Made by a program: the position numbers and the translations under genes. Below are positions 24,528 through 58,707 of a stretch of DNA of 64,000 nt, one piece after another (position 1 is the stretch's first letter; each line of letters opens with the position of its first letter). Source of the DNA: Alcanivorax sp. (GTDB taxonomy: Bacteria > Pseudomonadota > Gammaproteobacteria > Pseudomonadales > Alcanivoracaceae); the NCBI GenBank assembly GCA_022449455.1, contig JAKUPL010000001.1, positions 1-64,000 of the forward strand. The letters run 5' to 3'. The notes below the pieces were generated by a model that ran no database searches, had not been told where the DNA came from, and was given only the letters and a program-made list of their open reading frames with translations.

Positions 24528-25427
24528 TCAGGCCGGTGCCGGTTGTTCGCGGCGGGCTTCCAGGTCCTGGTTGGCCCGTTCGATCAGCGCGTCCGGTTCG
24601 TCGCCCCGTGCCGTGGCCAGGCCCACGTCCAGGCGCTGCAGGCGGGTTTCGCCCTGGCGGGTCTTGAACGCGAAGTGGTCCACCGCGGCGATCAGTTCCC
24701 CGGCCAGCAGGGTCGCCTCCCGTTCGCCGGTGCCGGGCAGTACCACCGCGAAGCGGTCGCCGGCGTAGCGGCACAGCAGGTCATCCTGGCGCAGGTTGAG
24801 CAGCAACAGTTCCGCCAGTTCCTGGAGCAGCCGGTCCGCGTCCCGCGAGCCCAGTTGCCGGCGCACGTGATCGAAGCGGTTCACGTCCAGCATCATCAGC
24901 GTCACGGCGCGGCCGGCCTCGCCCAGCTCCATGGCCAGTTGCCGGCGCAGGTAAGGCGCGCTGGTCAGGTTGGTAAGGCGGTCGAAGCTGCGGTGCTCGC
25001 GAAAAATCCGCTCCCGGCGACGCAGTTGCTCGTTGATGGCCAGCTGCTCCCGTTGCCAGTGGTAGATGCCCAGGGTCAGCAGCACCATGCCCAGGGGCAT
25101 GGCGCCGGATTCCACCCAATGATCCCAGACCACCGCCTCGGGCAGGCGGATCACCTCGTCCAGCACGTCCTGCCAGTAGGCGATGAAGATGCCGGTCAGC
25201 CCGGCCACCAGATAGTTGGTGACGCGGCCGGAAGGGCGGCTATTGAGAATCAGGCCCAGCCACAGAAAAGCGAGCAGGGCGGCGCCGCCCTCGCCGGCGA
25301 TGTCCAGCCAGGCGATTTCCTCCAGCCCCTTGGGGTCTCCGGCGGCCAGGTTGGCCAGCAGCACCAGGTTGGCCAGGGTGGCCACGGCGAGAATCTTCCA
25401 GCGGTGCAGATGCAGCATTCTTATCAC
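24528..25427 (-). CDS. Membrane GGDEF protein with degenerate active site
   Basis: This 299-residue protein has several hydrophobic segments in residues about 10-125 and a GGDEF domain in about 145-290. The metal-binding region is conserved (VTLMMLDVNRFDHVRRQLG), but the catalytic loop reads RYAGDRFAV, that is AGDRF instead of GGDEF. Loss of the glutamate normally abolishes diguanylate cyclase activity, so it is more likely a c-di-GMP/GTP-sensing or scaffold protein. It is co-transcribed with the AraC-type gene, which starts four bases later. An orphan terminator lies in its leader region (25562-25603). Confidence 0.85.
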   Translation of the reverse strand: MIRMLHLHRWKILAVATLANLVLLANLAAGDPKGLEEIAWLDIAGEGGAALLAFLWLGLILNSRPSGRVTNYLVAGLTGIFIAYWQDVLDEVIRLPEAVVWDHWVESGAMPLGMVLLTLGIYHWQREQLAINEQLRRRERIFREHRSFDRLTNLTSAPYLRRQLAMELGEAGRAVTLMMLDVNRFDHVRRQLGSRDADRLLQELAELLLLNLRQDDLLCRYAGDRFAVVLPGTGEREATLLAGELIAAVDHFAFKTRQGETRLQRLDVGLATARGDEPDALIERANQDLEARREQPAPA

Positions 25428-25561
25428 GGTGTCGTCCTCTTCCCGTTTCCTGCAGGCACTGGTACGCGGCGGCCATGTCAGTTCGATGACAGACCGGCGG
25501 ATGGCGGGCCAGGGGGTCGAATCGGCTCACCCGATCCGCCGTGGCGCGGCGTTGATCGATG

Positions 25562-25659: not shown

Positions 25660-25699
25660 TTTTCATGGGGTTGGCTTTTCCCTGTAACAGAACGGACAT
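25660..25699 (+). promoter_or_regulatory. Candidate PhoB-box repeats upstream of the TonB-dependent receptor
   Basis: CTGTAAC (25682-25688) and CGGACAT (25693-25699) sit at the 11-base period of Pho-box half-sites (consensus CTGTCAT), each matching 5 of 7. Two weaker repeats at the same period precede them (TTTTCAT at 25660, TTGGCTT at 25671). The match is modest and leans on the function of the downstream genes. Confidence 0.35.
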
Positions 25700-25766
25700 T
25701 TCCCGTGCCTAGTGTCCCGGCGCAACGCAATCAGGCAGGGGGCGCCGTGCCCCGGGGGAGAACCGC

Positions 25767-28232
25767 ATGTTCAAGAAAACTTTGCTCGCCACCCTGGTGG
25801 GCCTGGCCGCGGGCCAGGCCGCCTGGGCCCAGCAGGCCGGCGACGGCAACGAGGAGACCGTCAAGGTGATCGGCCAGGCGGCCAGCATGGACAAGGCGCT
25901 GGCCAGCCAGCGCGCCGCCGACAACATTGAAACCACCGTCAACGCCGACGCCATCGGCCAGTTTCCCGACAGCAACGTCTCCGAGTCCTTGCAGCGCCTG
26001 CCCGGGGTGTCCATCGAGCGGGACCAGGGCGAGGGCCGCTTCGTGCGGGTGCGCGGCCTGGCCCCGGACCTGAACGCGGTGAACGTTAACGGCATCCAGG
26101 TGCCGGCGCCGGAATCCGACCGCCGCGCCGTGGCCCTGGACGTGATTCCCTCGGAGCTGCTGGAGTCGCTCACGGTGGTGAAATCGCTCACCCCGGACAT
26201 GGACGCCAACTCCCTGGGCGGCACCGTGGAGGTGAACAGCCTGTCGGCCTTCGACCGCGACGGGCTCTACTACTCCGTGTCCGGCCAGGCCGGTTACCAC
26301 GAGCACAGCGAGGAAACCAGCCCGGAACTGTCCGCCGCCGCCAGTAATCGCTTCGACCTGGGCGACGGCCAGGACAACTTCGGCGTCGCCGCCGCCATCA
26401 GCTGGGCGGAGCGGGACTTCGGCTCCGACAACGTGGAAACCGGCGGCGCCTGGGATTTCGACGGCGACACGCCGCGCCTGGAGGAATTCGAACAGCGCGA
26501 CTACACCATCACCCGGGAACGGCTGGGCATGGCGCTGAACCTGGACTACCGGCCCGACGACAACACCAGCTACTACCTGCGCACCCTGCACAGCCGCTTC
26601 CGCGACCAGGAAGTGCGCCAGGCCACCCTCTACGGTTTCGACAGTGCCCAGGCCGCCGGCGAGACCGGCCTCACCGAGGTGGAGAAGGAACTCAAGAACC
26701 GGGAGGAAACCCAGGAAATCACCTCCCTGGTGTTCGGCGGCAAGAAGCGCTGGGACCGCTGGATCATGGAATACAACCTGGGCTACAGCGAAGCCAGCGA
26801 GGAAGAGCCCCGCCACACCGACGGCGCCGTGTTCGTCGCCGAGCTGCCCAACGGCGGTTTCACCGACAGCCGCCAGCCCAATGCGCTGCACCCGGACGGT
26901 TTCTTCGACGACGGCAACTACGAACTGGACGAGGTGGAAGTCGCCAGCGGTGACACCGAGGACAACCAGACCGACCTCAAGCTGGACTTCACCCGCGAGC
27001 TGCTGTGGAACAACAACCCGGCTTCCATCAAGTTCGGCACCAAGATGGCGCGCCGCGACAAGGAAGGCGACGTCAACGTCTGGACCTACGAACCGGACGG
27101 CAACCTGGCGGATTTCCGCACCGACGTGGACTACGAGCTGGGCGACATCGGCTCCGGCATCGACCCGGACGCCATGGACAACGCGCTCAGCGGGCCCGGC
27201 GAGTTCGACGCCGAGGCCTCCGCCATCGAGGACTACAAGATTTCCGAGGACCGCGACGCCGCCTACGTGATGGGCACCGTGGACTTCGAGAAGCTGCGCC
27301 TGCTGGGCGGCGTGCGTTATCAGCGCACCGACTTCGAGGCCCGGGGCAACGGCGTCGAGGACGGCACCCTGGTGACCAATGACTACGACGAAAGCGAGGA
27401 CCACTGGCTGCCGGCCCTGCACCTGCGCTACCAGCTCGGCCGCGACACCATCGCTCGCGCCGCCTTTACCCAGTCCGTGGTGCGGCCCACCTTCGAACAG
27501 CTTTCTCCGGGCTTCGAGATCGACGGCGACGAAGCCAGCTTCGGCAACCCGGAGCTCAAGTCACTGGAAGCCAACAACTTCGATCTTGGCATCGAGCACT
27601 ACATGGGCCGCGCCGGGGTGATCTCCGCCTTCGCGTTCTACAAGGACATCGATAACTTCGCCTACCTCACCGATCTGGGTGGCTCGCCGGGCTACGAGGC
27701 GTTCAGCGACGCGGAGACCTTCGACAACGGCAGCGACGCTTCGGTGTACGGCCTGGAGCTGTCCTACTCCAAGCAGTTCAACGAATTGCCGGCGCCGTTC
27801 AACGGCCTGTTGGTGGGCGCCAACGCCACCTTCGTGGATTCCGAGGCCACCATCGAAAGCTACGACGATGACGCCGGCGCCTATTCCCGCCGCGACATCC
27901 CGCTGCCCAGCCAGTCCGACGTCACCGGCAACCTGGTGTTCGGTTACGAAACGCCGCGCCTGAGTCTGCGCCTGGCGGCCAACTACACCGGTGAGTTCCT
28001 GCAGGAAGTGAGCGATCCCCTGGACGATCGCTACGACATCTACACCGATGACCATGTGCAGCTGGACTTCACCGGCCACTACTTCCTCACCGAGCAGCTC
28101 CAGCTCACCTTCGAGGCGATCAACATCAATGACGAACCCTTCTACGCCTACACCGGCAAGGAGCGGTTCAACGCCCAGTACGAGGAATACGGCCCGACCT
28201 ACAAGCTGGGGCTGTCCCTCAAACACTTTTGA
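25767..28232 (+). CDS. TonB-dependent receptor, probably for phytate or organophosphate
   Basis: This is an 821-residue outer-membrane receptor. A signal peptide (residues 1-22, ending AAWA) precedes a plug domain (IGQFPDSNVSESLQRLPGVS, then VRGLAPDLNAVNVNGIQVPA) and a barrel ending in LGLSLKHF with C-terminal Phe. There is no STN signalling domain. The plug wording is typical of the carbohydrate/organic-nutrient receptor clade rather than siderophore receptors. A phytase lipoprotein gene follows 67 bases downstream, and a TonB-ExbBD motor with PhoX lies after that. By context it probably imports phytate, its breakdown products or another phosphate ester; the substrate is not proven. Confidence 0.9.
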   Translation: MFKKTLLATLVGLAAGQAAWAQQAGDGNEETVKVIGQAASMDKALASQRAADNIETTVNADAIGQFPDSNVSESLQRLPGVSIERDQGEGRFVRVRGLAPDLNAVNVNGIQVPAPESDRRAVALDVIPSELLESLTVVKSLTPDMDANSLGGTVEVNSLSAFDRDGLYYSVSGQAGYHEHSEETSPELSAAASNRFDLGDGQDNFGVAAAISWAERDFGSDNVETGGAWDFDGDTPRLEEFEQRDYTITRERLGMALNLDYRPDDNTSYYLRTLHSRFRDQEVRQATLYGFDSAQAAGETGLTEVEKELKNREETQEITSLVFGGKKRWDRWIMEYNLGYSEASEEEPRHTDGAVFVAELPNGGFTDSRQPNALHPDGFFDDGNYELDEVEVASGDTEDNQTDLKLDFTRELLWNNNPASIKFGTKMARRDKEGDVNVWTYEPDGNLADFRTDVDYELGDIGSGIDPDAMDNALSGPGEFDAEASAIEDYKISEDRDAAYVMGTVDFEKLRLLGGVRYQRTDFEARGNGVEDGTLVTNDYDESEDHWLPALHLRYQLGRDTIARAAFTQSVVRPTFEQLSPGFEIDGDEASFGNPELKSLEANNFDLGIEHYMGRAGVISAFAFYKDIDNFAYLTDLGGSPGYEAFSDAETFDNGSDASVYGLELSYSKQFNELPAPFNGLLVGANATFVDSEATIESYDDDAGAYSRRDIPLPSQSDVTGNLVFGYETPRLSLRLAANYTGEFLQEVSDPLDDRYDIYTDDHVQLDFTGHYFLTEQLQLTFEAININDEPFYAYTGKERFNAQYEEYGPTYKLGLSLKHF

Positions 28233-28299
28233 TCAGGCAGGGCGGTACCCGGCACGCGCCGGATGCCGCCGGCTTTTTTCCTGACGTAAGGACGACACC

Positions 28300-30135
28300 A
28301 TGAAGAAATGCACCACCCTGTTTTTGCTGTGCCTGGGCGGCGCCTTGTTGGCCGGTTGCCAGCATGGGCCGGACCGGGCACCGCCTTGGGTGCCGGATCA
28401 ACGGGCCGGGCTGGCGCTGTGGTTTCCCGGCGCCGGTGACGGCTGGGCGGCGATCAGCGCCGCCGGCGACCTGATCGTGGACGGCGCCGGCGCGCCGCTG
28501 CGTGGCGGTGATTTCGAACGCCTCGACGGCCGGCGTCTGGACGACGGCCGCTGGCGGCTGGCCACCGTGGACACCGCCGCCAACCAGGTGGTGGTGCTGG
28601 AGGTGGCGGACCACCGGGCGCGCACCCTGACGACCCTGCCGGTGCCGGACTACGAAGTGAACGGGCTCTGTCTGTACCAGGACCGGGACGCGCATCTGTC
28701 CGTGTTCGTGCTGGACGAGCGTGGCGGCGCCGACCAGTGGTTGCTGCGCGACGGCGGCGAGCCGCTGCACGTGCGCCGCCTGGCGCTGCCCGCCGGCGCC
28801 GAGTACTGCCGCGTGGACGACCGCCGGGACGCCCTCTACATGAGCGAGGAGGGCGTCGGCCTGTGGCGCTACCGCGCCGATCCGGAACGGGACCCGGAGC
28901 GCACCCTGATCGATGCCCGCCACCCCCACGGCGGCGTGGCCGAGAGCGCCAAGGGCCTGGCCCTGATCCCCGGCGGCGTGGCCCTGCTCGACGCGGACGC
29001 CGCCGAGCTGCACCTGTATCGCGACGGCGCCCCGGTGGGCGCGCCCCTGGCGGTGCCCGACCTGGACGAGCCGGAACGGCTGGCCAGCCGCTGGCGGGAC
29101 GGCCGGCTCACCCTGGTGGTCCTGGATGACGATGGCGCCGCCGCGCGGCGTCTGACGGTGCCCTGGGACGCCGCCACCAGCGACCAGGAAGAAGCGGATC
29201 TGGTCACCGTGCTGCCCAGCGCCCAAACCGAGCCGGTGGCCCGCTTCGGCGACGCCGCCGACGACCCGGCGATCTGGATTCACCCGGACAACCCGGCCGC
29301 CAGCCTGGTGCTCGGCACCGACAAGAAAAACGGCCTGCACGTCTACGACCTGTCCGGCCGGGAGCGGCAGTTCCTGCCCGCCGGCAAGCTCAACAACGTG
29401 GACGTACGCGGCAACCTGGCGGTGGCCAGCAACCGGGACCACGACAGCCTGCATCTGTTCGACATCGACGCCGCCAGCGGCCGCCTCACCGACCTGGGTG
29501 AACTGGCCACCGGCCTGGAAGAAATCTACGGCCTGTGCATGCACCGGGACGGCGAGGGCCGCGTCCATGCCATCGCCAATGGCAAGAGCGGCGCCTTCGA
29601 ACAGTACCGGCTGCGGCGCTCTGAACACGGCGTGCGCGGCGAACGGGTGCGTCGCTTCCAGGTGCCCAGCCAACCGGAGGGCTGCGTCGCCGACGACGCC
29701 ACCGGCCGCCTGTTCGTGGGCGAGGAGAACGCGGCGGTGTGGGTACTGCCCGCCGACCCGGACGACCCGACCCCGGCGCGCCCGGTGATCGAGGTGGGCG
29801 ACAAGGTGGTCGCCGACATCGAGGGCCTGGCCCTGCACCTGGGCGACGACCACCGCTACCTGGTGATCTCCAGCCAGGGCAACAACAGCTATGTGGTGGT
29901 GGACGCGGTGCCGCCCTTCGCTTACCGGGGCCGCTTCCGCATCGGTGCCAACCTGGACGCCGCCATCGACGGCGCCTCGGAAACCGATGGGCTGGAAGTG
30001 ACCGCCCTGGACCTGGGCGGCGCCTATGGCGAGGGCCTGCTGGTGGTCCAGGACGGCCGCAACCGGCTGCCCCAGGCCCCGCAGAACTTCAAGTACGTGC
30101 CCTGGACGGCGGTACGCGAGGCCTTGGGGCTTTAA
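28300..30135 (+). CDS. Beta-propeller phytase lipoprotein, two-domain
   Basis: This 3-phytase hydrolyses phytate with calcium. It has 611 residues. The N-terminus is a lipoprotein signal (LGGALLAGC, Cys20, next residue Gln, so outer-membrane sorting is expected). Residues about 320-610 form the catalytic six-bladed propeller with family motifs DDPAIWIHPDNPAASLVLGT, DKKNGLHVYDLSGRE and a late ASETDGLEVT. Residues about 35-300 form a second, incomplete propeller-like domain, as in known dual-domain phytases where it increases activity. It lies in tandem with the receptor, so phytate could be cleaved at the cell surface or in the periplasm next to the uptake channel. Confidence 0.9.
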   Translation: MKKCTTLFLLCLGGALLAGCQHGPDRAPPWVPDQRAGLALWFPGAGDGWAAISAAGDLIVDGAGAPLRGGDFERLDGRRLDDGRWRLATVDTAANQVVVLEVADHRARTLTTLPVPDYEVNGLCLYQDRDAHLSVFVLDERGGADQWLLRDGGEPLHVRRLALPAGAEYCRVDDRRDALYMSEEGVGLWRYRADPERDPERTLIDARHPHGGVAESAKGLALIPGGVALLDADAAELHLYRDGAPVGAPLAVPDLDEPERLASRWRDGRLTLVVLDDDGAAARRLTVPWDAATSDQEEADLVTVLPSAQTEPVARFGDAADDPAIWIHPDNPAASLVLGTDKKNGLHVYDLSGRERQFLPAGKLNNVDVRGNLAVASNRDHDSLHLFDIDAASGRLTDLGELATGLEEIYGLCMHRDGEGRVHAIANGKSGAFEQYRLRRSEHGVRGERVRRFQVPSQPEGCVADDATGRLFVGEENAAVWVLPADPDDPTPARPVIEVGDKVVADIEGLALHLGDDHRYLVISSQGNNSYVVVDAVPPFAYRGRFRIGANLDAAIDGASETDGLEVTALDLGGAYGEGLLVVQDGRNRLPQAPQNFKYVPWTAVREALGL

Positions 30136-30152
30136 GCATTTAAGTAAAGGGA

Positions 30153-30192
30153 CTGTCATCCGCCTTTTATAGAGTGGTCACGAAACTGTCTT
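30153..30192 (+). promoter_or_regulatory. PhoB-box-like direct repeats upstream of the tonB/phoX operon
   Basis: Four seven-base repeats stand at exact 11-base steps: CTGTCAT (30153, 7/7 to consensus), CTTTTAT (30164, 5/7), TGGTCAC (30175, 4/7) and CTGTCTT (30186, 6/7). This periodicity is the hallmark of PhoB binding sites, which replace the -35 box. The first pair leaves room for a -10 element near 30181 and a short leader before the ATG at 30203. The operon encodes PhoX, a classical Pho-regulon phosphatase. Confidence 0.6.
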
Positions 30193-30202
30193 GAGAGCTT
30201 TT

Positions 30203-30970
30203 ATGAACAAGCCAATCGGAACCCTGATGGTGCTGGCGGCCCTGGCCGCCGGCGGCGTCCGGGCCGCGGACATGCGGGCGGTCACCGCCGAGGGCGAGGC
30301 ACGGGCCTCGGAAAGCGGCGCCGCCCAGAACCGGGTCGCCGGCCTGGACGACGAAAGCGCGCGGCTGGAAGCGGAGTACCGCCAGTTGCTGCGTACCGTG
30401 GACGGCCTGGAAACCTACAACCGGGTGCTCGGCGAGCAGGTCGCCGCCCAGGAAAGCGAACGCCAGGACATGGCCGCCTCCCTGGACAACGCCGCCCGCC
30501 TGGAACGCCGCCTGGTACCGCTGATGGACCGCATGATCGAGCGGCTGGACACCTTCATCGACGAGGATCCGCCGTTCCAGGTGACGGCGCGCCACGCCGC
30601 AATGGACGAACTGCGCCAGCGGCTCGGCGACCCGGACGCGCCGGTGGCGGACACCCTGCGCCGGGTGTTCGAGGCCTACGCCGGCGAAGCCGCCCACGGC
30701 CGTTCCCTGGACAGCTGGCGGGGCACCCTGGAGCTGGACGGCGAGCGCCGCGATGTGAACCTGCTGCGGGTGGGCCGGGTGGCCCTGATGTACCGCACCC
30801 TGGACGGCGAAGCCCTGGGTGCCTGGGACCCGGGCGCCGGCCAGTGGCGGAGCCTGGATCGGGGCGAATACCGCCGCGCCTTCGACATGGCGATGAAAAT
30901 CGCCGACAAACAGGCGGCGCCGGAGCTGATCCGCGTGCCCCTGTTCGGTGCCCGGGAGGTGACGCCATGA
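30203..30970 (+). CDS. DUF3450 periplasmic coiled-coil protein
   Basis: This protein of 255 residues has a signal peptide (ends GGVRA, about residue 22), a long coiled coil (about 45-115: DDESARLEAEYRQLLRTVDG and following) and a compact C-terminal domain (LELDGERRDVNLLRVGRVAL, GQWRSLDRGEYRRAFDMAMK). The DUF3450 family is consistently encoded at the start of TonB2-type operons with TtpC, ExbB, ExbD, TonB and a TPR protein. Its precise role in energy transduction is not settled. I chose the ATG at 30203; a TTG at 30191 lies within the Pho-box repeat. The stop overlaps the next start (ATGA). Confidence 0.85.
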   Translation: MNKPIGTLMVLAALAAGGVRAADMRAVTAEGEARASESGAAQNRVAGLDDESARLEAEYRQLLRTVDGLETYNRVLGEQVAAQESERQDMAASLDNAARLERRLVPLMDRMIERLDTFIDEDPPFQVTARHAAMDELRQRLGDPDAPVADTLRRVFEAYAGEAAHGRSLDSWRGTLELDGERRDVNLLRVGRVALMYRTLDGEALGAWDPGAGQWRSLDRGEYRRAFDMAMKIADKQAAPELIRVPLFGAREVTP

Positions 30971-32292
30971 CCCGCGTACTGGTGTGTGTATTGGCGGCGC
31001 TGCTGATGGCGCCGGCCCTGGCCGCCGACAGTCTGTCCCTGGATACCCTGTTGGAACAGGCCCGCCAGGGCCGTGCCGGGGAAGCCCGGGAAAACCGCGA
31101 GCGGCTGGCCCGCTTCCGCGCCGAGCGCGACCGCCGCGACGCTCTGGAGCAGCGCAGCGAGAACCTGGAGCAGCGCTTCGAGGCCAACCGCGAAACCCTG
31201 GAGGCGCGCCGCGCCGAGCTGCGCGAGGCCCTGGGTGGCATGCGCGAGGTGTTCGGCGTGGTCCAGCAGGTGGCCGCCGACGCCCGGGCGGATTTCCGCG
31301 ACAGCGTCACCCAGGTGCAGTACCCGGAACGGGACGCCTTCCTGGCCGGGCTGATCCAGCGCATGGGCAACGCCGACCGGCTGCCGGACCTGGATCAGGT
31401 GGAGCGGCTGTGGCTGGAATTGGACCGGGAAATGCGCGCCGGTGGTCAGGTGGCCCGCTTCAAGCACCCGATCGTGGAAGCGGACGGCGACACCGACAGC
31501 GACGAAACCGTCACCCGGGTGGGCCTGTTCCAGCTCACCGCCGACGATGACTATCTGGAATATCTGCCCGCCGAGAACCGCCTGGTGGAGCGCGCTGCCC
31601 AGCCCGACGGCGCCGCCCGCGCCAGCGCCGAGGCCCTGGACGAGGAGCGCTTCCCGGTGGCGTTCGCCCTGGACCCCACCCGTGGCGAGCTGCTCGACAT
31701 GCTGGTGCGCATGCCCGGCTTCCTGGAGCGCCTGCGCCAGGGCGGCCTGATCGGCTACGCCATCCTGCTGCTGGGCGCCGTGGCGGTGCTGGTGACCCTG
31801 GAGCGGGCCCTGGTGCTGGCCCGCCAGCGGCGCCGCTTCAAGCGCCAGATGGCGGACCCGGCCCACCCCGGTGACAACCCCCTGGGGCGCATCCTGGCCT
31901 GCTACGCGGACCAGCGGCACCGGGACCCGGAAACCCTGGAGCTGAAGATCGGCGAGGCGCTGATCAAGGAACTGCCGCCGCTGCAGAAGCGCCTGGTGTG
32001 GCTGAAGATGATCGCCATGGTGGCGCCGCTGATGGGCCTGTTGGGCACCGTCACCGGCATGATCGTCACCTTCCAGTCGATCACCCTGTTCGGCACCGGC
32101 GATCCCAAACTGATGGCCGGCGGCATTTCCCAGGCCCTGGTGACCACCGTCATGGGGCTGTCCGTGGCGATTCCCACCCTGCTGCTGCACACCCTGCTGC
32201 ACGCCCGCGCCCGGGCGCTTGGCCAGGTGCTGGAAGAGCAGGCCGCGGGCATGGTCGCCGAACAAATGGCCGGCGCCCGCGCCGCCGCCTGA
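30967..32292 (+). CDS. TtpC-like protein: periplasmic coiled coil plus ExbB/TolQ domain
   Basis: This 441-residue inner-membrane protein is the extra ExbB-like subunit of TonB2 systems (TtpC in Vibrio). A signal peptide (to about residue 20) is followed by a coiled coil rich in Glu/Arg (about 30-105), a periplasmic domain to about 255, and then the MotA/TolQ/ExbB unit with membrane segments near 262-284, 350-370 and 388-410. The ExbB core motif VAPLMGLLGTVTGMIVTFQS and GGISQALVTTVMGLSVAIPT is intact. I chose the ATG at 30967 (ATGA overlap with DUF3450 gene); the open frame extends upstream but is out of phase with that gene. It should transmit proton-motive force to TonB together with ExbB and ExbD. 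Confidence 0.9.
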   Translation: MTRVLVCVLAALLMAPALAADSLSLDTLLEQARQGRAGEARENRERLARFRAERDRRDALEQRSENLEQRFEANRETLEARRAELREALGGMREVFGVVQQVAADARADFRDSVTQVQYPERDAFLAGLIQRMGNADRLPDLDQVERLWLELDREMRAGGQVARFKHPIVEADGDTDSDETVTRVGLFQLTADDDYLEYLPAENRLVERAAQPDGAARASAEALDEERFPVAFALDPTRGELLDMLVRMPGFLERLRQGGLIGYAILLLGAVAVLVTLERALVLARQRRRFKRQMADPAHPGDNPLGRILACYADQRHRDPETLELKIGEALIKELPPLQKRLVWLKMIAMVAPLMGLLGTVTGMIVTFQSITLFGTGDPKLMAGGISQALVTTVMGLSVAIPTLLLHTLLHARARALGQVLEEQAAGMVAEQMAGARAAA

Positions 32293-32302
32293 GGAAGCGA
32301 CC

Positions 32303-32833
32303 ATGCTCGACGCCCTGCGTGAACTGCTGGATCTGGGTGGCCCGGTGCTGTGGCTGATCGGCGCCGTGCTGGTGGCCCTGTGGGCGCTGATCGCCGACCG
32401 CTGGCTATACCTGTGGCGGGTCCATCCGGACCGCCGCCGCCGGGCCCTGGCGGTGTGGCGGGCGGTGCGCCCCCCCAACCTGTGGAGCGCCCGCAAGCTG
32501 CGCGCCCGGCTGGTGTCCCTGGTGGCCCAGCCCCTGGAGCGGCACCTGGCGCTGATCCGCACCCTGATCGCCCTGTGCCCGCTGCTCGGCCTGCTGGGCA
32601 CGGTCACCGGCATGCTGCGGGTGTTCGACGTGCTGGCGGTGATCGGCACCGGCGACGCCCGCGCCCTGGCCGACGGCGTGGCCCGCGCCACCGTGCCCAC
32701 CATGGCCGGCATGGTGGCGGCCTTGTCCGGCGTGCTGATGAGCCACTACCTGGCGCGCCGCGCCCGCTACGAGCGCGAAGCGCTCACCGACGCCATGACC
32801 ATCGACGCCCCCGGGGGAGACACCCATGCGTAG
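32303..32833 (+). CDS. exbB: ExbB-like proton channel subunit
   Basis: This 176-residue inner-membrane protein is the second MotA/TolQ/ExbB-family member of the operon. Three membrane segments are visible: about 12-30 (GPVLWLIGAVLVALWALIA), about 90-112 (IALCPLLGLLGTVTGMLRVF) and about 130-150. The conserved CPLLGLLGTVTGM core lines the channel with ExbD. The ATG at 32303 is preceded by GAGGAAG. It overlaps exbD by eight bases. It is shorter than E. coli ExbB (244) but normal for the TonB2-type ExbB2. Confidence 0.9.
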   Translation: MLDALRELLDLGGPVLWLIGAVLVALWALIADRWLYLWRVHPDRRRRALAVWRAVRPPNLWSARKLRARLVSLVAQPLERHLALIRTLIALCPLLGLLGTVTGMLRVFDVLAVIGTGDARALADGVARATVPTMAGMVAALSGVLMSHYLARRARYEREALTDAMTIDAPGGDTHA

Positions 32834-33239
32834 ATTCGCCTGGCAGGATCAGACCGACGAGCAGGACACCGGCATCGACGTGACGCCCATGCTCGACGTG
32901 GTGTTCATCCTGCTGATCTTTTTCATCGTCACCGCCTCCTTCGTCAAGGAGACCGGCGTGGAGGTGACCCGCCCCACGGCGGACACCGGCACCAGCCGGG
33001 AAGGCGCCAACATCGTGGTGGCCATCGACAACCAGAACCGGGTGTGGATCGACCAGCGTCAGGTGGATCCCCACGCGGTGGAAGCCCACGTGGCCCGGCT
33101 GCACGCCCGCAACCCCCAGGGCAGCGTGGTGATCCAGGCGGACGCCGCCTCCAACACCGAAACCCTGGTCACGGTGATGGACGGCGCCCGCGCCGCCGGG
33201 GTCCCGGACATCGCCATCGCCACCCGGAGCGGGCGCTGA
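32826..33239 (+). CDS. exbD: ExbD-like proton channel subunit
   Basis: This 137-residue protein has one membrane segment (about 23-42, LDVVFILLIFFIVTASFV) and a periplasmic domain. Asp24 in TPMLDVVF corresponds to the single proton-carrying aspartate of ExbD/TolR (Asp25 in E. coli). It forms the stator with ExbB and passes energy to TonB. The stop codon overlaps the tonB start (TGATG). Confidence 0.92.
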   Translation: MRRFAWQDQTDEQDTGIDVTPMLDVVFILLIFFIVTASFVKETGVEVTRPTADTGTSREGANIVVAIDNQNRVWIDQRQVDPHAVEAHVARLHARNPQGSVVIQADAASNTETLVTVMDGARAAGVPDIAIATRSGR

Positions 33240-33904
33240 TGACCGCCATCCAGCAACAGCTCGCCGGCGGCGGCGGACGCTTCACCCGCCTGCTGGCCCT
33301 GCCCGCCGCGCTGGTCGCGGCGCTGCTGCTGGGCTGGCTGATGGCGCGGCTGATCCAGGCCGAGGGCGAGGCGCCGCCCAGCCGGGAGCCCATGAAGGTG
33401 GTGCGCTTCGACGACAGCCGCCAGCAGCGCGCCCAGCCGGCAAGCCAGGCCCTGCCCCAGCGGCCGCCGGACACGCCGGCGCCGCCGCTGCCCTCGCCGG
33501 TGGCCCTGGACACGCCGGCCCCGGCCACCCCGGACCTGCCCCTGCCGGCGGCTCCCACGGAGCGCCCCAGCGTCACCCCGGACCTGAAACCGGGGGACCT
33601 GGGCGAGCCGTCGGCGCCGGTCGGCGACAGCGGCGAGTACCTGCCCATGACCAAGGTCACGCCGGCCTACCCGGAGCGGGCCCGCATGCAGAATCTGGAA
33701 GGCGACTGCGTGGTGGAATACACGGTCACGCCCCAGGGCACCACCACCGACGTGCGGGTGGTGGAGGACGAGTGCGAGAACTGGTTGTTCCGCCGGCCGG
33801 CGGTGAAGGCGGCGCAACGGTTTCGTTATCAGCCGCGCCACCAGAACGGCCAGGCGGTGGCCGTGCCGGGGGTGCGCAACCGCTTTGAATTCCGCCTGGA
33901 GTAA
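33239..33904 (+). CDS. tonB: TonB-like energy transducer
   Basis: This 221-residue protein has a single N-terminal membrane anchor (about 15-38, LLALPAALVAALLLGWLMAR), a Pro-rich periplasmic linker (about 60-130) and a C-terminal TonB domain (about 135-221: MTKVTPAYPERARMQNLEGD, VVEYTVTPQGTTTDVRVVED, AAQRFRYQPRHQNG). The ATG at 33239 is the start because it overlaps the exbD stop and opens the anchor. The short form and its place after ExbD identify a TonB2-type protein serving the local receptor rather than a global TonB. Confidence 0.92.
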   Translation: MTAIQQQLAGGGGRFTRLLALPAALVAALLLGWLMARLIQAEGEAPPSREPMKVVRFDDSRQQRAQPASQALPQRPPDTPAPPLPSPVALDTPAPATPDLPLPAAPTERPSVTPDLKPGDLGEPSAPVGDSGEYLPMTKVTPAYPERARMQNLEGDCVVEYTVTPQGTTTDVRVVEDECENWLFRRPAVKAAQRFRYQPRHQNGQAVAVPGVRNRFEFRLE

Positions 33905-33908
33905 ACCC

Positions 33909-35087
33909 ATGCGTTACTGGCTTGTTGTCCTGCTGCTTGTGTCCCTCGGCGCCCAGGCGGCGTTGCGCCCGGCGGTTCATGAACGGCTCCAGGACGCCCG
34001 CGCCCGGGCCGAGGCCGGCCACGGCGACGCCGCCCTGGCGGCCCTGGAGACGCTCACCTCCGAGCTGGACCTCACCGGCGAGGAGCGCGCCCGGGTGGAC
34101 GAACTGCGCGGCTACCTGCATTACCAGGCCGGCCGCCACGACGCCGCCCTGAGCGCCTACCAGGCGGTGGCCGCCAACCCGGACGCGCCGGCGCCCCTGC
34201 TGGACGGCACCCGCCGGGCACTGCTGTGGCTTTATTACGACGCCGGCCGCATGGATCGGGCCCTGGCCCAGTTCCGCGCCCTGGCCGCGCGCCACGACCA
34301 GCTCACGCCCGAGCTCCATGTGCTGGGCGCCACCGTGCTGCACGGCGCCGGTGACCACCGGGCCGCCGCCGACCATCTGCGCCGGGCGGTGGCCGGCCGG
34401 GAAGCCCGCGGCGAGGCGGTGCCGGACACCTGGCTATCGTCCTGGCGGGCGAGCCTGCAGGCCGCCGGCGATTACCGCGCCGCCGCCCGGGTGCAGAACC
34501 GGCTGGTGAACCGCTCGCCCAGCCCGGAGCACCTGCTGGCCCTGGCCGGCCTGTACGGCCGCGCCGGCGAGACGCGTAAGCAGGTGGCGGTGCTGGAAAG
34601 CCTGTACGAGAACGATCAACTGCCGGGCACCGACGCCCTGCGCACCCTGATCGCCCTGTACCAGCGCCTGGACCGGCCCCTGCAGGCGGCCCGGGCCCTG
34701 GACGCGGCGCTCCGGGAGGGCGTCCTGGGCGCCAGCCGGGAACGCCGCCGGCGGCTCGCCGGCCTGTGGCTCCAGGCCCGGGAGCAGGACCGCGCCCAGG
34801 CCACCCTGGAACGGCTGGTGGAGGACCACCCGGACGCGGACCTCTATCTGCAATTGGCGCGGCTCCATAACCGGGCACAGCGCTGGGGCGAGGCCGCCGG
34901 CGCCCTGGAGGGGGCCTTGGCACGGGGCGTGGACGACCGCGCCGACACCCTGATGGCGCTGGGCGTGGCCCGTTACCGCCAGGGCCGCCGGGCCGCCGCC
35001 CGGGACGCCTTTGAGCAGGCCCGCCGCCATGCCGCCCGCCGCGCCGACGCCGAACAATGGCTGGCCCACCTGAGCCGGCAACCTTGA
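33909..35087 (+). CDS. TPR-repeat periplasmic protein of the TonB operon
   Basis: This 392-residue protein has a signal peptide (to about residue 18, SLGAQA) and then helical tetratricopeptide-like repeats throughout (for example DELRGYLHYQAGRHDAALSA, ALGVARYRQGRRAAARDAFE near the C-terminus). TPR proteins are the usual last member of DUF3450-TtpC-ExbB-ExbD-TonB operons, where a scaffold role is suspected. It starts four bases after tonB and ends ten bases before phoX. Confidence 0.85.
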   Translation: MRYWLVVLLLVSLGAQAALRPAVHERLQDARARAEAGHGDAALAALETLTSELDLTGEERARVDELRGYLHYQAGRHDAALSAYQAVAANPDAPAPLLDGTRRALLWLYYDAGRMDRALAQFRALAARHDQLTPELHVLGATVLHGAGDHRAAADHLRRAVAGREARGEAVPDTWLSSWRASLQAAGDYRAAARVQNRLVNRSPSPEHLLALAGLYGRAGETRKQVAVLESLYENDQLPGTDALRTLIALYQRLDRPLQAARALDAALREGVLGASRERRRRLAGLWLQAREQDRAQATLERLVEDHPDADLYLQLARLHNRAQRWGEAAGALEGALARGVDDRADTLMALGVARYRQGRRAAARDAFEQARRHAARRADAEQWLAHLSRQP

Positions 35088-35097
35088 GGACCGAACC

Positions 35098-37068
35098 ATG
35101 ACCGATTCCCGCTTTCGCATCGACCCGGACGCCCTGGAGGCGCTGGACGACCGGCCGGTGGCCCGTCCCCGCGCCGGCGCGCCCCTGGACCCGCACCGGC
35201 GCCGCTTTCTGCGCGGCGGCCTGGGCCTGGCCGCCGCCGGATTCTTCGGCGCGCCCCTGGCCGGCTGCGCGCCGTCCGCCCCGGCACCGGGCGGGCGCCC
35301 GGCCATCGGCTTCACGCCCCTGGCCCGCCAGACCGACCCCGCCTTCGACGCCGTGGCCGTGCCCGACGGCTACCGCGCCCGGGCCTTCTACGCCTGGGGA
35401 GATCCGATCCGCGCCGGCGCCCCGGCCTGGAAGCCGGGCGCCTCCAACGACTGGCGCGATCAGCTCGAGCAGGCCGGCGACAACCACGACGGCATGCATT
35501 ACTTCCCGTTCCCGGACGACCCCAACGGCCACGGCCTGCTGGTGATCAACCACGAAAAGGTGGAAACGGAATACCTGCACCCGAACGGCCCCACGGTCCG
35601 CCAGGACGCGGACGGCCGCCGCCGGCGTCCGGTGCGGGAAGTGAAAAAGGAACTGGCCGCCCACGGCGTCAGCGTCATCGAAGTGCGCCGCGACGACGAC
35701 GGTGAGTGGCGGCGGGTGATGGACTCCCGCTACAACCGCCGGATCAGTGCCCTGACGCCCATGGTCCTGCGCGGCCCAGCCGCCGGCACCCCGGGCCTGC
35801 GCACCGCCTCGGACCCGGACGGGCGCACCGTGATCGGCACCTTCGCCAACTGCGCCCTGGGCTACACCCCCTGGGGCACCTATCTCGCCTGCGAGGAAAA
35901 CTGGCCCAACTACTTCGTCAACCGGGACGCGGCGGACCACGCCGGGCGCGCGAGCCATGCCCGCTACCGGGTCAGCCAGGGCGAGGTCAGCAACTATTAT
36001 TTGTGGGAAACCGCCGAACCGCGCTTCGACGCCACCCCGGACCCGGCGGCGCCCCACGGCGGCCACGTCAACGAGCCCAACCGCTTCGGCTGGGTAGTGG
36101 AAATCGACCCGTTCGACCCGGACGGCACCCCGGTGAAGCGCACCGCCATGGGCCGGCTGGTGCGCGAGTGCAGCACTCCCTCGGTGGCGCCGGACGGCCG
36201 CCTGGCGTTCTACTTCGGCGACGACACCCGGGGCGAATACGTCTACAAGTTCGTGCCCGCCGGCCGCTACCGGCCCGACGACCCGGCCGCCAACCGCCAC
36301 CTGCTCGACGAGGGCACCCTCTACGTGGGCGTGTTCGGCGACGGTGGCAAGGGGGAATGGCGGCCCCTGGTTCACGGCCAGGGCCCGCTCACCGCGGAGA
36401 ACGGCTTTCATGATCAGGCGGACGTGCTGATCAACGCCCGGGGCGCCGCCGACCTGGTGGGCGCCACCACCATGGACCGGCCGGAATGGGTGGCGGTGAA
36501 ACCGGGCAACCGGGAGGTCTATGTCTCGCTCACCAACAACCACAAGCGCGGCCAGGTGCCGGATCAGCCGGTCAACGGCGCCAACCCGCGCTCACCGAAC
36601 CTGCACGGCCAGATCCTGCGCTGGCGTGAACGGGACGACGACCCCCCCGCCACCCGCTTCCAGTGGGAGCTGTTCCTGCTGGCCGGCTATCACCGGGACA
36701 CGGACGTGCCCGACGCCCAGAAAGGCACCATCGACGGCGACGTCTTCTCGTCCCCGGACGGCCTCTGGTTCGACCCGGACGGCCGCCTCTGGATCGAGAC
36801 CGACTACGACGACGCCGGCCCCGACCACGCCGCCATGGGCACCAACCAGTTGCTGTGCGCCGACCCGGACACCGGCGAGGTGAAACGCTTTCTGGTGGGC
36901 CCGCGCGGCTGCGAGATCACCGGCATCACCGGCACCCCGGACGGTCGCGCGCTGTGGATCAACGTGCAGCACCCGGGCATCAGCTTCCCCGCCGGCGACG
37001 GCCACACCCGGCCCCGTTCCGCCACCGTGCTGATCGAGAAGAACGACGGCGGCGTGATCGGCACCTGA
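35098..37068 (+). CDS. phoX: PhoX-type alkaline phosphatase, Tat-exported
   Basis: This 656-residue phosphatase of the PhoX/DUF839 family releases phosphate from a broad range of esters using calcium and iron. The N-terminus carries a twin-arginine signal (HRRRFLRGG, Arg34-Arg35) followed by a hydrophobic stretch and a possible lipobox (APLAGC, Cys57). Family motifs are GDNHDGMHYFPFP, LLVINHEKVETEYLHPNG, CALGYTPWGTYLACEENWPN and RECSTPSVAPDGRLAFYFGD. Tat export fits a protein that loads its metals in the cytoplasm. It is the last gene of the TonB operon and so is likely under the same Pho-type control. It converges on the oxidoreductase gene 12 bases later. Confidence 0.93.
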   Translation: MTDSRFRIDPDALEALDDRPVARPRAGAPLDPHRRRFLRGGLGLAAAGFFGAPLAGCAPSAPAPGGRPAIGFTPLARQTDPAFDAVAVPDGYRARAFYAWGDPIRAGAPAWKPGASNDWRDQLEQAGDNHDGMHYFPFPDDPNGHGLLVINHEKVETEYLHPNGPTVRQDADGRRRRPVREVKKELAAHGVSVIEVRRDDDGEWRRVMDSRYNRRISALTPMVLRGPAAGTPGLRTASDPDGRTVIGTFANCALGYTPWGTYLACEENWPNYFVNRDAADHAGRASHARYRVSQGEVSNYYLWETAEPRFDATPDPAAPHGGHVNEPNRFGWVVEIDPFDPDGTPVKRTAMGRLVRECSTPSVAPDGRLAFYFGDDTRGEYVYKFVPAGRYRPDDPAANRHLLDEGTLYVGVFGDGGKGEWRPLVHGQGPLTAENGFHDQADVLINARGAADLVGATTMDRPEWVAVKPGNREVYVSLTNNHKRGQVPDQPVNGANPRSPNLHGQILRWRERDDDPPATRFQWELFLLAGYHRDTDVPDAQKGTIDGDVFSSPDGLWFDPDGRLWIETDYDDAGPDHAAMGTNQLLCADPDTGEVKRFLVGPRGCEITGITGTPDGRALWINVQHPGISFPAGDGHTRPRSATVLIEKNDGGVIGT

Positions 37069-54731: not shown

Positions 54732-54902
54732 TGAATTCTCCTGCTAGGCTCGCGGGATTGTGAACACGCCATGGTGTCATGGCGGTGCAGAGGGCCATTA
54801 ATATCAGGGTCTGGGGCGCGGATTTCAAGCGCGCCGGGCAATGGGGCCGACAGGGGCCGCCTATCAGGGGCGCCGGGCCGGGGACCGCCGAGGAGGACGG
54901 TT

Positions 54903-56393
54903 TTGCGACAACCTGAACATCTGGCCGCCATCGATCTGGGGTCGAACAGCTTTCATATGGTGGTGGCCCGTCAGGCGCAGGGTGAGGTGCGCGTGCTGGA
55001 AAGCCTGTCCGAGAAGGTACAGCTGGGCGCCGGCCTGGACCGCGATAACCGCCTGGACGAGGCGGCCCAGCAGCGCGCCCTGGACTGCCTGGCGCGGTTC
55101 GGCCAGCGGATCACCGGCATCCCCCGGGGGAATGTGCGCGTAGTGGGTACTAACACACTGCGCATGGCCCGTAACGCCAATCAGTTCATCGCGCGGGCCG
55201 AGGCTCTGCTGGGGCACGACATCGAGGTGGTGGCCGGCCGCGAGGAGGCCCGGCTGATCTATCTGGGCGTGGCCCACAGCCTGGCCGACGACGCCGGCGC
55301 CCGCCTGGTGGTGGACATCGGCGGCGGTTCCACGGAGCTGATCATCGGCGAGCGGTTCGAGGCGGTGGAGACCGAGTCCCTGCACATGGGCTGCGTCAGC
55401 TACGGGCAGCGCTTTTTCCCGGAGGGCCGCATCACCGAGGCGGCGTTCCGCAAGGCGGTCACCGCCGCCCGTCAGGAAGTGCTTTCCATCGACGCCAACT
55501 ACCGGCGGCTGGGCTGGGCCCAGGCGGTGGGGGCGTCGGGCACCGTCAAGGCCATCGCCCAGGTGTGCGAGGAGAACGGCTGGAGCGGCGAGGGCGTCTC
55601 GCTGGAGGGGCTCGACAAGGCGCGCCGCAAGGCGATCAAGGCCGGCAGCGTGGACGCCCTGGATCTGAAGGGCCTGCGCGACGACCGCAAACCGATCTTC
55701 GCTTCCGGTCTGGCGATCCTGCTGGGCATCTTCGAGCAGTTGGGCCTGGAGCGCATGCAGTTTTCCAACGGTGCCCTGCGCGAGGGGCTGCTCTACGACC
55801 TGCTCGGCCGCTTCAGCCATGAGGACGTGCGCGAGCGCAGCATCCAGGCGTTGATGAACCGTCACCATGTGGAGCGCGCCCAGGCGGAGCGGGTCTGGGC
55901 CACCGCCCGGGGCCTCCATGAGCAGGTGGCGCCGGTCTGGCAACTGGAGGACGACGCGGCCCTGGACACCCTGCGCTGGGGGGCGCTGCTTCACGAGGTG
56001 GGGCTGGCGGTGTCGCACAGCCAGTTCCACAAGCACGGTGCTTATCTGGTGTCGAATTCCGACCTGCCCGGCTTTTCCCGGCAGGAGCAGCAGGGGGTGG
56101 CGTTGCTGGTGCGCGGCCATCGCCGCAAGCTGCCGCTGTCGGCCCTGGCCGATTGCCCCGAGGATGAGCAATCGCGCTGGCTGCGGCTGTGTCTGATTCT
56201 GCGGTTGGCTTGCCGGCTGCACCATGCCCGTAACGACGGGCCGGTGCCGGCCCTGGGCCTGGCGGTGGACGGCGAGGCCCTGACGCTGTCGTTCCCGGAG
56301 GGCTGGCTGGCGGAGCATCCCCTGACCCTGGCGGACCTGGAGCAGGAGCAGGAGTATTTCCAGGCCGCCAATTACTCGCTCACGCTCTCGTAG
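54903..56393 (+). CDS. ppx: Exopolyphosphatase Ppx
   Basis: This 496-residue enzyme removes terminal phosphates from polyphosphate (or pppGpp) and belongs to the Ppx/GppA family. I chose the TTG at 54903 because AGGAGG (54891-54896) ends six bases before it; the frame is open upstream but lacks family sequence. Motifs are LAAIDLGSNSFHMVVAR, the phosphate-binding VVDIGGGSTELIIG and SLHMGCVSYGQRFFPEG, with an HD-like C-terminal half (LRWGALLHEVGLAVSHSQFH). It converges with ppk, giving a polyphosphate turnover pair. Its stop codon TAG is part of a REP unit. Confidence 0.93.
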   Translation: MRQPEHLAAIDLGSNSFHMVVARQAQGEVRVLESLSEKVQLGAGLDRDNRLDEAAQQRALDCLARFGQRITGIPRGNVRVVGTNTLRMARNANQFIARAEALLGHDIEVVAGREEARLIYLGVAHSLADDAGARLVVDIGGGSTELIIGERFEAVETESLHMGCVSYGQRFFPEGRITEAAFRKAVTAARQEVLSIDANYRRLGWAQAVGASGTVKAIAQVCEENGWSGEGVSLEGLDKARRKAIKAGSVDALDLKGLRDDRKPIFASGLAILLGIFEQLGLERMQFSNGALREGLLYDLLGRFSHEDVRERSIQALMNRHHVERAQAERVWATARGLHEQVAPVWQLEDDAALDTLRWGALLHEVGLAVSHSQFHKHGAYLVSNSDLPGFSRQEQQGVALLVRGHRRKLPLSALADCPEDEQSRWLRLCLILRLACRLHHARNDGPVPALGLAVDGEALTLSFPEGWLAEHPLTLADLEQEQEYFQAANYSLTLS

Positions 56394-56435: not shown

Positions 56436-58523
56436 TCAGCCGCCGGTCAGTTCTTCCAGCAGAGCCTGCTGGGCCAGGAACGGCGCTTCGCCTTCCTCTG
56501 GTTGCACCCGGGTATAGCTGCCGTCCGGGTTCAACGTCCAGGCCTGGCCGTTATCACGCAGATAGTAGTCCAGCCCCTCGCGGAGAATGCGCTGCTTGAG
56601 CAGCGGGTCGTTCACCGGGAAGCAGGTTTCCACCCGGTTGAACAGATTGCGGTCCATCCAGTCGGCGCTGGAGCAGTACAGCAAATCCTCGCCGGCGTGA
56701 TGAAAATGGTAGATGCGGGTGTGCTCCAGGAACCGGCCGATGATCGAGCGCACGCGGATGTTCTCCGAGAGGCCCGGGATGCCCGGCCGCAAGCAGCAGA
56801 TGCCGCGCACGATCAGATCGATCTCCACCCCCGCCTGGCTGGCCCGGTACAGGGCCTGCATGATGCGGCCTTCGGTGAGTGAGTTGAACTTGGCGATGAT
56901 GCGCGCCGGCTTGCCGGCGCGGGCCTGCTCGGTCTCGAAATCGATCCAGCTGATCAGGCTCGGGTGCAGGGTGAACGGCGAGTGCTTCAGGTGCTTGAGG
57001 CGGGCCGCCTTGCCCATGCCGGTGAGCTCCTGAAAAATCTTGTGCACGTCCTGGCACAGGCCTTTCTCAGCCGTCATTAATCCATAGTCGGTGTAAATGC
57101 GCGTGGTCTTGGTGTGGTAGTTGCCGGTGCCCAGGTGCGCGTAGCGTTTGATGCCGTCGCCGTCGCGGCGTACCACCAGCAGCATCTTGGCGTGGGTTTT
57201 GTAGCCCACCACGCCGTACACCACCATGGCGCCGGCTTCCTGCAAGCGGCGGGCGCCTTCGATGTTCGATTCCTCGTCGAAGCGCGCGCGCAGTTCCACC
57301 ACCGCGGTCACTTCCTTGCCGTTGCGGGCGGCGGTTTCCAGATGGTCGAGGATCTCGGAGTTGGTGCCGGTGCGGTAGAGCGTTTGCTTGATGGCCAGCA
57401 CCTTCGGGTCCCGGGCCGCCTCGGCGAGCAGGTTGACCACCGGGCTGAAGCTCTCGAACGGGTGATGCAGCAGGATGTCGCCCTGGTCGATGGCGTCGAA
57501 CACGCTCTCGTGTTTTTTCAGCGCCGGCGGCACCCGTGGGGTGAAGGGCGCATAGTGCAGCCGGGGCCGGTTGACGCTGGTGAACATGCGCGCCAGGTTC
57601 ACAGGCCCGTTCACTTCATAGGCGTCCTGGGCGGTGAGCTCGAACTGCTCCAGCAGATAGTCCACCAGATGGCGCGGACAGTTGTCCGCCACTTCCAGCC
57701 GCACCTCGTCGCCGTAGCGCCGTGACAGCAGCTCGCCCTTGAGCGCGCTGGCCAGGTCCTCGGCGTCCTCGTCCACTTCCAGGTCGGCATTGCGGGTAAC
57801 GCGGAACTGGTAGCAGCCGGTGGCGCTCATGCCCGGGAACAGATCGCTCACATGGGCGTGGATCATCGACGACAGAAAAATAAAGTTGTCGTTGCCGTTC
57901 TCGCAGATGTGCGCCGGCAGCCGGATCAGGCGCGGCAGCGAGCGCGGCGCCGGCACGATGGCCAGGCCGGTGGAGCGCCCGAAGGCGTCCTTGCCGTCCA
58001 GCGGCACGATAAAGTTGAGGCTCTTGTTCACCAGCCGCGGAAACGGATGGGCCGGGTCCAGGGCGATCGGCGTCAGCACCGGATAGACCTGCTCGCGGAA
58101 ATATTTTTTCACCCACTCCGCCTGGCGCCGGGTCCAGTGCTCCCGGCGCAGAAAGTGCACCCCTTCCTCGGCCAGGGCCGGCAGCAAAATGTCCTGCAGA
58201 ATGTGGTACTGGCGCTGCACCGCCTCATGGGTGACGCGGGCGATCTCGTCGAGAATTTCCTGGGCCAGCATGCCGTCCGGCCCGGGCTGCCCGGTGCCGG
58301 TTTCCAACCGGTTCTTCAGCCCGGCCACGCGGATCTCGAAGAACTCGTCCATGTTGGACGAGAAAATCAGCAGGAAATTGAGGCGCTCCATCAACGGATG
58401 GCGCTCGTCCATGGCCTGTTCCAGCACCCGCAGGTTGAACTGCAGCAGGCTCAGTTCCCGGTTGATGTAGTAGTCGTGATTGTCCAAGTCGATGGCGTGA
58501 TGGTGGTTGGCGATATGGTTCAT
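56436..58523 (-). CDS. ppk1: Polyphosphate kinase 1
   Basis: This 695-residue membrane-associated enzyme makes polyphosphate from ATP. The N, head and two C-terminal domains are complete (E. coli 688): [40 protein letters not shown] with the phospho-accepting His, and [20 protein letters not shown] with [13 protein letters not shown] chose the ATG at 58523; an in-frame ATG at 58559 sits almost against a PhoB box and probably before the transcription start. It is convergent with ppx and divergent from a TonB-dependent receptor. The upstream Pho box predicts induction by phosphate starvation. Confidence 0.95.
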
Positions 58524-58562
58524 GGCGTGATCCCGGCCCGGACGCGAAAGAGCCTCCATTCC

Positions 58563-58591
58563 ATGACATTACTGTGACAGAGGCATGACAG
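58563..58591 (-). promoter_or_regulatory. PhoB box of ppk1 (three half-sites)
   Basis: On the minus strand CTGTCAT (58585-58591), CTGTCAC (58574-58580) and ATGTCAT (58563-58569) repeat at exact 11-base steps with four-base spacers, matching the PhoB consensus CTGTCAT at 7/7, 6/7 and 6/7. It lies 40 bases upstream of the chosen ppk1 start. This is the best regulatory site in the window. Confidence 0.88.
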
Positions 58592-58650
58592 GGCGGCGCC
58601 TGGGTCAGAGTATCGCACTGGAAGGCCGCCGGGGAGGGCTTCCATGCTTA

Positions 58651-58682
58651 CGAATGATACGTATAATGCGAACCATTCTTGT
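58651..58682 (+). promoter_or_regulatory. Fur-like site and -10 region of the second siderophore receptor
   Basis: GAATGATACGTATAATGCGA and the following ACCATTCTT form overlapping AATGAT/ATTCTT-type Fur half-sites. TATAAT (58662-58667) is a consensus -10 box inside this stretch. It lies 25-55 bases before the receptor start codon. Confidence 0.55.
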
Positions 58683-58707
58683 TTGCCTTAACGTCCGGAG
58701 TAGTTCT

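Follow-up and report, generated by a model that had tools for sequence, protein, structure and literature searches.

Why should a bacterium keep a complete TonB motor inside a set of genes for scavenging organic phosphate, and does that motor serve the receptor encoded beside it? The question is posed by a stretch of 64,000 nucleotides from Alcanivorax sp. (contig JAKUPL010000001.1; hereafter, the window). Within this 4.22-Mb genome, nine genes lie on the plus strand between positions 25767 and 37068 in the order TonB-dependent receptor (TBDR), phytase, DUF3450, TtpC, ExbB, ExbD, TonB, TPR protein, and PhoX. This gene content and order, proposed in the initial annotation, are borne out by Pfam and NCBIfam: the Pfam matches above the cut-off were the TBDR barrel and plug, Phytase, DUF3450, ExbD, TonB_C, TPR, and PhoX, with MotA_ExbB found in two proteins. 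The features are as follows.

25660..25699 (+), Pho-box-like array 5' of the receptor gene (four-unit score, 19/28; conserved two-unit core)
25767..28232 (+), TonB-dependent receptor, 821 aa (Pfam/NCBIfam TIGR01782; predicted TBDR fold)
28300..30135 (+), predicted two-propeller phytase with lipobox, 611 aa (Pfam; 3amr alignment; predicted model)
30136..35097 (+), segment without counterpart in seven relatives, i.e., the motor (blastn against the window)
30153..30192 (+), Pho-box-like array 5' of the motor genes (score, 22/28; sharp 11-bp period)
30203..30970 (+), ttpB-like gene (Pfam DUF3450), ATG start at 30203
30967..32292 (+), ttpC-like gene, a long ExbB with a periplasmic N-terminal part (Pfam MotA_ExbB)
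32303..32833 (+), exbB (Pfam MotA_ExbB)
32826..33239 (+), exbD (Pfam ExbD)
33239..33904 (+), tonB (Pfam TonB_C)
33909..35087 (+), ttpD-like gene, TPR protein (Pfam TPR)
35098..37068 (+), phoX with twin-arginine motif and lipobox (Pfam PhoX; 3zwu alignment; signal by eye)

Adjacent motor genes overlap by 1 to 8 bases or are separated by 4 to 10 bases. The best starts are slightly downstream of those of the longest open reading frames (ORFs) for TtpB (ATG, 30203) and TtpD (ATG, 33909; alternatively, a longer reading from TTG at 33885).

The receptor has plug and barrel domains by Pfam, and its predicted structure is that of an ordinary TBDR. A segment near residue 30, ETVKVIG, was picked out by eye as TonB box-like. 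A phmmer search returned no sequence relative of the receptor in the PDB, and thus none with a known ligand, so that the ligand is not readable from homology. The nearest solved folds to the model were receptors for iron compounds, as expected for any TBDR.

The Phytase match (PF02333; 1.6e-80) falls on the second half of the 611-aa, lipobox-bearing protein. Residues 303 to 610 align with the Bacillus phytase 3amr (E, 2.7e-63) and keep its motifs; the first half folds, in the predicted structure (mean pLDDT, 87), into another all-beta domain. Matches to the model include solved Bacillus phytases and, over about 600 columns, tandem-propeller proteins. Judged by its Pfam match, propeller fold, and conserved motifs, the protein is probably a beta-propeller phytase, and its earlier description as a two-domain lipoprotein of this kind holds. 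Dual-domain phytases were already known, and TBDR genes had been noted beside beta-propeller phytases before. PhoX was matched by Pfam at 6.4e-158 and aligned with 3zwu at an E value of 4e-155; by eye, its N terminus carries a twin-arginine motif followed by a lipobox. The full-length match and the twin-arginine signal indicate a putative PhoX alkaline phosphatase.

With the twin-arginine motif and the lipoprotein +2 sorting rule as background, the window's phytase and its PhoX both appear to be anchored by lipid. In crude pattern tests, a lipobox was present in 51 and absent from 47 of 98 phytases, while 25 of 36 PhoX proteins had a lipobox and 34 of 36 had a twin-arginine pattern. Phytases of Pseudomonas that were inspected resemble ordinary secreted proteins. 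The cleavage at the cell surface envisaged in the initial annotation is doubtful, given that nearly half of these phytases lack a lipobox, and cleavage on the periplasmic side seems likelier because the Pseudomonas proteins look plainly secreted. In Endozoicomonas arenosclerae (L121/L163), the phytase and PhoX are 8.7 kb apart, and an ORF between them (L121, 12413 to 13585) resembles, by eye, a histidine acid phosphatase.

Both strands of the window (127,922 positions) were scanned with the Pho-box consensus in four units, (CTGTCAT N4)x4, for which the maximum score is 28. The top score, 22, occurred at two positions, i.e., 30153 (+) before the motor and 58563 (−) before ppk. Five positions scored at least 19, including 25660 (+) before the receptor (19/28). 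Among the periods of 8 to 14 tried, the motor site peaks at 11 (22 versus at most 13). The receptor site scores 19 at period 11 and 17 at period 10, and with three units period 10 is better (15 versus 14). A two-unit core of the receptor site, CTGTAAC-N4-xTGACAT, occupies a conserved place in 11 of 12 aligned Alcanivoracaceae loci, with a score of merely 9 to 11 of 14. Two-unit scores of at least 11 were found upstream of 58 of 99 receptors versus 37 of 2,080 background stretches, the 99 receptors being non-independent since they include seven duplicate contigs and many congeners. Pho-box-like repeats thus do precede both units, as had been noted, strongly at the motor and more weakly, with weak periodicity, at the receptor. 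These sites fit control of the locus by PhoB, which we infer from the DNA sequence. A Pho-like site before a Ttp motor is not unique to the window, since 2 of 31 other DUF3450 genes have an upstream four-unit score of at least 18 (L253, 18; L259, 20), a count made without a base-composition control. We also considered a Fur-type promoter and rejected it: the best Fur matches upstream of the motor and the receptor reached 9 to 10 of 19, a score common across the window, and no Fur-like site stands out before either.

The scan also touched neighboring genes. A Pho-box-like site, CTGTCATCGAACTGACAT (13/14), lies at 25453 to 25492 (−) before a diguanylate-cyclase-type gene (24528 to 25427, −; GGDEF motif by eye) that is divergent from the receptor gene; this site is among the next-ranked after those of the motor and ppk, is shared with a congener (L111), and is weaker in other relatives. 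The array at 58563 to 58602 (−) precedes a gene resembling polyphosphate kinase (56436 to 58559, −), near which is an exopolyphosphatase-like gene (54771 to 56393, +), both named by eye; a second TBDR gene (58585 to 60825, +) is divergent from the ppk-like gene. In L259 (G083, C4), the array scoring 20 stands before a Ttp-type motor with a TBDR-phytase pair roughly 85 kb away on the same contig, and Pho control of a Ttp motor in trans is possible there.

Phytate is the presumed substrate of the receptor. It is rather unlikely, though the most credible of the alternatives, that the receptor instead imports a different phosphate ester, or metal-bound phytate chiefly for the sake of the metal. 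Homology names no ligand for the receptor, and the iron-compound folds would suit such a substrate even if they are expected of any TBDR; however, the receptor is accompanied by a phytase in most loci, and the promoters are Pho-like, not Fur-like.

The ttpB-like protein matches DUF3450 at 1.4e-67 and its gene is the sole DUF3450 gene found in this genome. From the six-gene order, with DUF3450 first and TPR last, the motor is assigned on sequence to the Vibrio TonB2/3 type. In Vibrio (PMC6957404), the TonB2 and TonB3 systems consist of the same six genes in the same order, ttpB-ttpC-exbB-exbD-tonB-ttpD, with DUF3450 in TtpB and TPR in TtpD; a receptor gene stands at the start of the tonB3 operon, and siderophore uptake in V. 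vulnificus requires all six TonB2 proteins.

The motor genes are under purifying selection (dN/dS, 0.07 to 0.27, from one genome pair, the window genome [G000] and its congener G011). No donor for the motor was found: ttpC homologs within the class are 33 to 54% identical, and the nearest TtpC proteins are 47 to 54% identical. Many Gammaproteobacteria carry these six genes together in a different genomic context. We fetched 34 DUF3450-motor loci from outside the genus (L247 to L266 and L277 to L290), several of them short, and none had a phytase or PhoX match at an E value of 1e-4; with 0 of 34 having either gene nearby, the idea of a phosphate-specific DUF3450 motor family was rejected. Receptors resembling that of the window are present in four DUF3450-motor loci (L253, L257, L260, and L281), and a Pfam receptor is located beside the motor in L247 and L264.

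How the motor came to lie in this locus can be read from its relatives. Among the loci fetched and surveyed, the nine-gene set was present only in the window genome and G011 (L111; 97% identical DNA), and the block, whose co-conservation the initial annotation had proposed to check, turned out to be nearly a one-off. Seven motorless relatives from two genera (L107 to L110, L112, L119, and L120) were compared with the window by blastn, and all seven lack a counterpart of 30136 to 35097. Collinearity with the window extends over both flanks in the congeners L107 to L110 as well as in L112 and L119, which belong to a second genus of the family; in L120, the contig ends on the receptor side. In six of the seven, phoX comes immediately after phytase, with a gap of about 17 bp in L107 to L110; L112 has neither motor nor phoX. 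Receptor, phytase, and phoX without the motor are found in four loci of the same genus and two of the other. Because the segment is absent from seven relatives with collinear surroundings, the motor looks inserted between phytase and phoX in this lineage, and the difference is probably a gain, not a loss. Within the family, DUF3450 matches above the cut-off were limited to G000, G011, and, with a divergent sequence, G023. An order-level set of 143 genomes contained phytase in 31, DUF3450 above the cut-off in 68, and PhoX in 97, with phytase and DUF3450 as neighbors only in G000 and G011 (listed coordinates, compared by eye). In a class sample of 369 genomes, TtpC-like genes (E, 1e-60 or better) occurred in 75 and phytase in 11; besides the window genome, five had both, on separate contigs or hundreds of kb apart.

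A different motor occupies the same slot elsewhere. Of at least 572 confirmed stretches, the 80 best phytase loci (including Pseudomonas, Stutzerimonas, Methylophaga, and Oxalicibacterium) had ExbB-ExbD directly after the phytase in 73 loci and TonB in 72 (L148 ends before TonB); 28 of these 73 then carry PhoX, the other 7 of the 80 have no motor, and none has DUF3450. The proportion of 73 in 80 is not an unbiased frequency because these are the best 80 of 572, found with a search alignment that already contained motor-bearing loci; in addition, 7 of the 80 duplicate contigs in the set of other relatives, as judged from their equal length. That set comprised 30 regions, i.e., 1 with a DUF3450 motor, 3 with ExbBD-TonB, and 26 motorless (7 with phytase then PhoX).

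We built a receptor tree from 39 of 40 rows picked out of 104 receptors (L138 was too short). In this quickly built tree, whose branches are long, a fully supported branch separates the ExbBD receptors from all others, and another does so for the DUF3450 receptors. Two changes, one each for ExbBD and DUF3450, account for the three motor states, from which it follows that two different motors probably joined related receptor-phytase loci separately. That many relatives fill this slot with a motor of a different type strengthens the functional link, and suggests that local powering of this receptor has paid off repeatedly. Two members of the family, Alcanivorax sp. DG881 and a MAG related to it (L158/L180), have the conventional-motor version; their receptors belong to the ExbBD clade, apart from the motorless loci of the family, as if this version had been acquired from outside. 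On a Pseudomonas subflava contig (L130/L186), the ExbB of the phytase locus has, in its translated ORF, a segment of about 34 residues repeated in tandem within the protein, either real or an assembly effect.

Does the receptor depend on the motor beside it? The window genome has five TonB_C matches above the cut-off and 19 receptor plug domains. Two of the matches are beside ExbB and ExbD matches (C2 and C14), the one on C30 resembles a Tol set, and the one on C45 is isolated; in a further set, on C34, the TonB_C match stays below the threshold. Six relatives, G011 included, had three to six TonB_C matches each, and the five tested motorless genomes with receptor, phytase, and phoX all encode other TonB proteins. 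As the motorless relatives retain these three genes, the module can do without the motor, and those relatives must rely on a different TonB. Nor is a pairing of receptor and motor forced in the window genome, given two other exbB-exbD-tonB sets and 19 plug domains. The initial annotation had proposed that the locus uses its own motor rather than the global TonB; the co-encoding of a motor with the receptor, phytase, and PhoX agrees with this, while the motorless relatives, with their other TonB proteins, indicate that it is not required. The receptor may be paired with the co-encoded motor on the grounds of co-location, with strict dependence argued against by the same relatives.

The motor could instead be an additional general TonB system under Pho control that powers several receptors during phosphate starvation, with no pairing to the co-encoded one. 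Such a role would suit a genome with 19 plug domains and few TonB proteins and has parallels in two reports, in which TonB2 of V. vulnificus serves several siderophores (PMC6957404) and tonB2 of T. turnerae serves both iron and carbohydrate uptake (PMC10734418). We nevertheless consider it unlikely, in view of the position of the motor inside a TBDR-phytase-PhoX locus, the independent occurrence elsewhere of a second type of motor in that slot, and the lack of an outstanding Fur-like site before the motor genes. That an ancestral motor between phytase and phoX was lost in most Alcanivoracaceae, the window keeping or having exchanged it, is improbable despite the sister receptor clade with an ExbBD motor in the slot, as it would have to accommodate the near absence of DUF3450 from the family and a motorless state at the same collinear place in two genera; it concerns history and leaves function untouched.

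We judge it fairly probable that this is a Pho-regulated organophosphate uptake locus into which a six-gene motor of the TonB2/3 type was inserted, supplying the receptor with force at least in part. Under phosphate limitation, the receptor, phytase, motor, and PhoX would be made together. The receptor would carry phytate, a similar inositol phosphate, or a phosphate ester across the outer membrane, driven at least partly and locally by the TtpB-TtpC-ExbB-ExbD-TonB-TtpD motor, which would have been inserted between phytase and phoX with a Pho-type promoter of its own. The phytase and PhoX, both seemingly lipid-anchored, would cleave the ester, probably on the side of the outer membrane that faces the periplasm, and the released phosphate would pass to ordinary phosphate transporters. 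The substrate and the receptor-motor pairing, both inferred, are the weakest steps of this model.

A broader proposition, on which we are evenly divided, is that the locus belongs to a Pseudomonadota-wide, modular importer of organophosphates for phosphate starvation, whose motor slot has been filled independently by the three-gene ExbBD-TonB and the six-gene Ttp types. If true, selection would favor a power supply that is encoded locally and co-regulated, and the Ttp type would have been recruited from iron or carbohydrate uptake to phosphorus, gaining a role outside those two. That many bacteria retain several TonB motors still calls for an explanation, and natural variants of one receptor-phytase locus (no motor, three genes, or six genes) make the worth of a local motor directly testable. 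The locus would also flag genomes likely to import organic phosphorus through the outer membrane.

The literature search, with most subscription papers outside its reach, returned no description of the nine-gene set or of a TBDR-phytase-ExbBD-TonB cluster. The suggestion that a motor co-encoded with PhoX is an undescribed system stands to that extent, but phytases of this kind commonly have a motor of the conventional ExbBD-TonB form beside them, and frequently PhoX as well. In Flavobacterium johnsoniae, a TBDR is encoded beside a Pfam Phytase protein (Fjoh_1367/1368), both induced by phosphate depletion; the receptor adjoins the phytase as in the window, and the accessible text mentions no co-encoded motor (PMC8115612). 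Citromicrobium bathyomarinum JL354 has the same adjacency, for which phytic acid uptake was only predicted, with neither a motor nor PhoX mentioned in the part of the report available (PMC3400609). Clusters of the Ttp type have known roles in iron uptake, and those of Teredinibacter in the use of carbohydrates (PMC10734418). Vibrio TonB2 serves siderophores and has a Fur site (PMC6957404), whereas the window motor has phytase and PhoX as neighbors and a Pho-like site upstream; with Fur matches no better than scores common in the window, this motor is TonB2-like in build and is not the TonB2 iron system. Close counterparts are also the TBDR-phytase-ExbB-ExbD-TonB(-PhoX) loci of Pseudomonas and others, which resemble the window locus in having a related receptor and phytase, a motor at the corresponding place, in many cases a PhoX after it, and Pho-like upstream sites. 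They differ in that their three-gene motor is without DUF3450, TtpC, or the TPR protein, and in that PhoX is absent within 6.5 kb in 39 of the 80 best phytase loci despite available sequence. Set against these systems, the locus combines known parts in an uncommon and informative arrangement.
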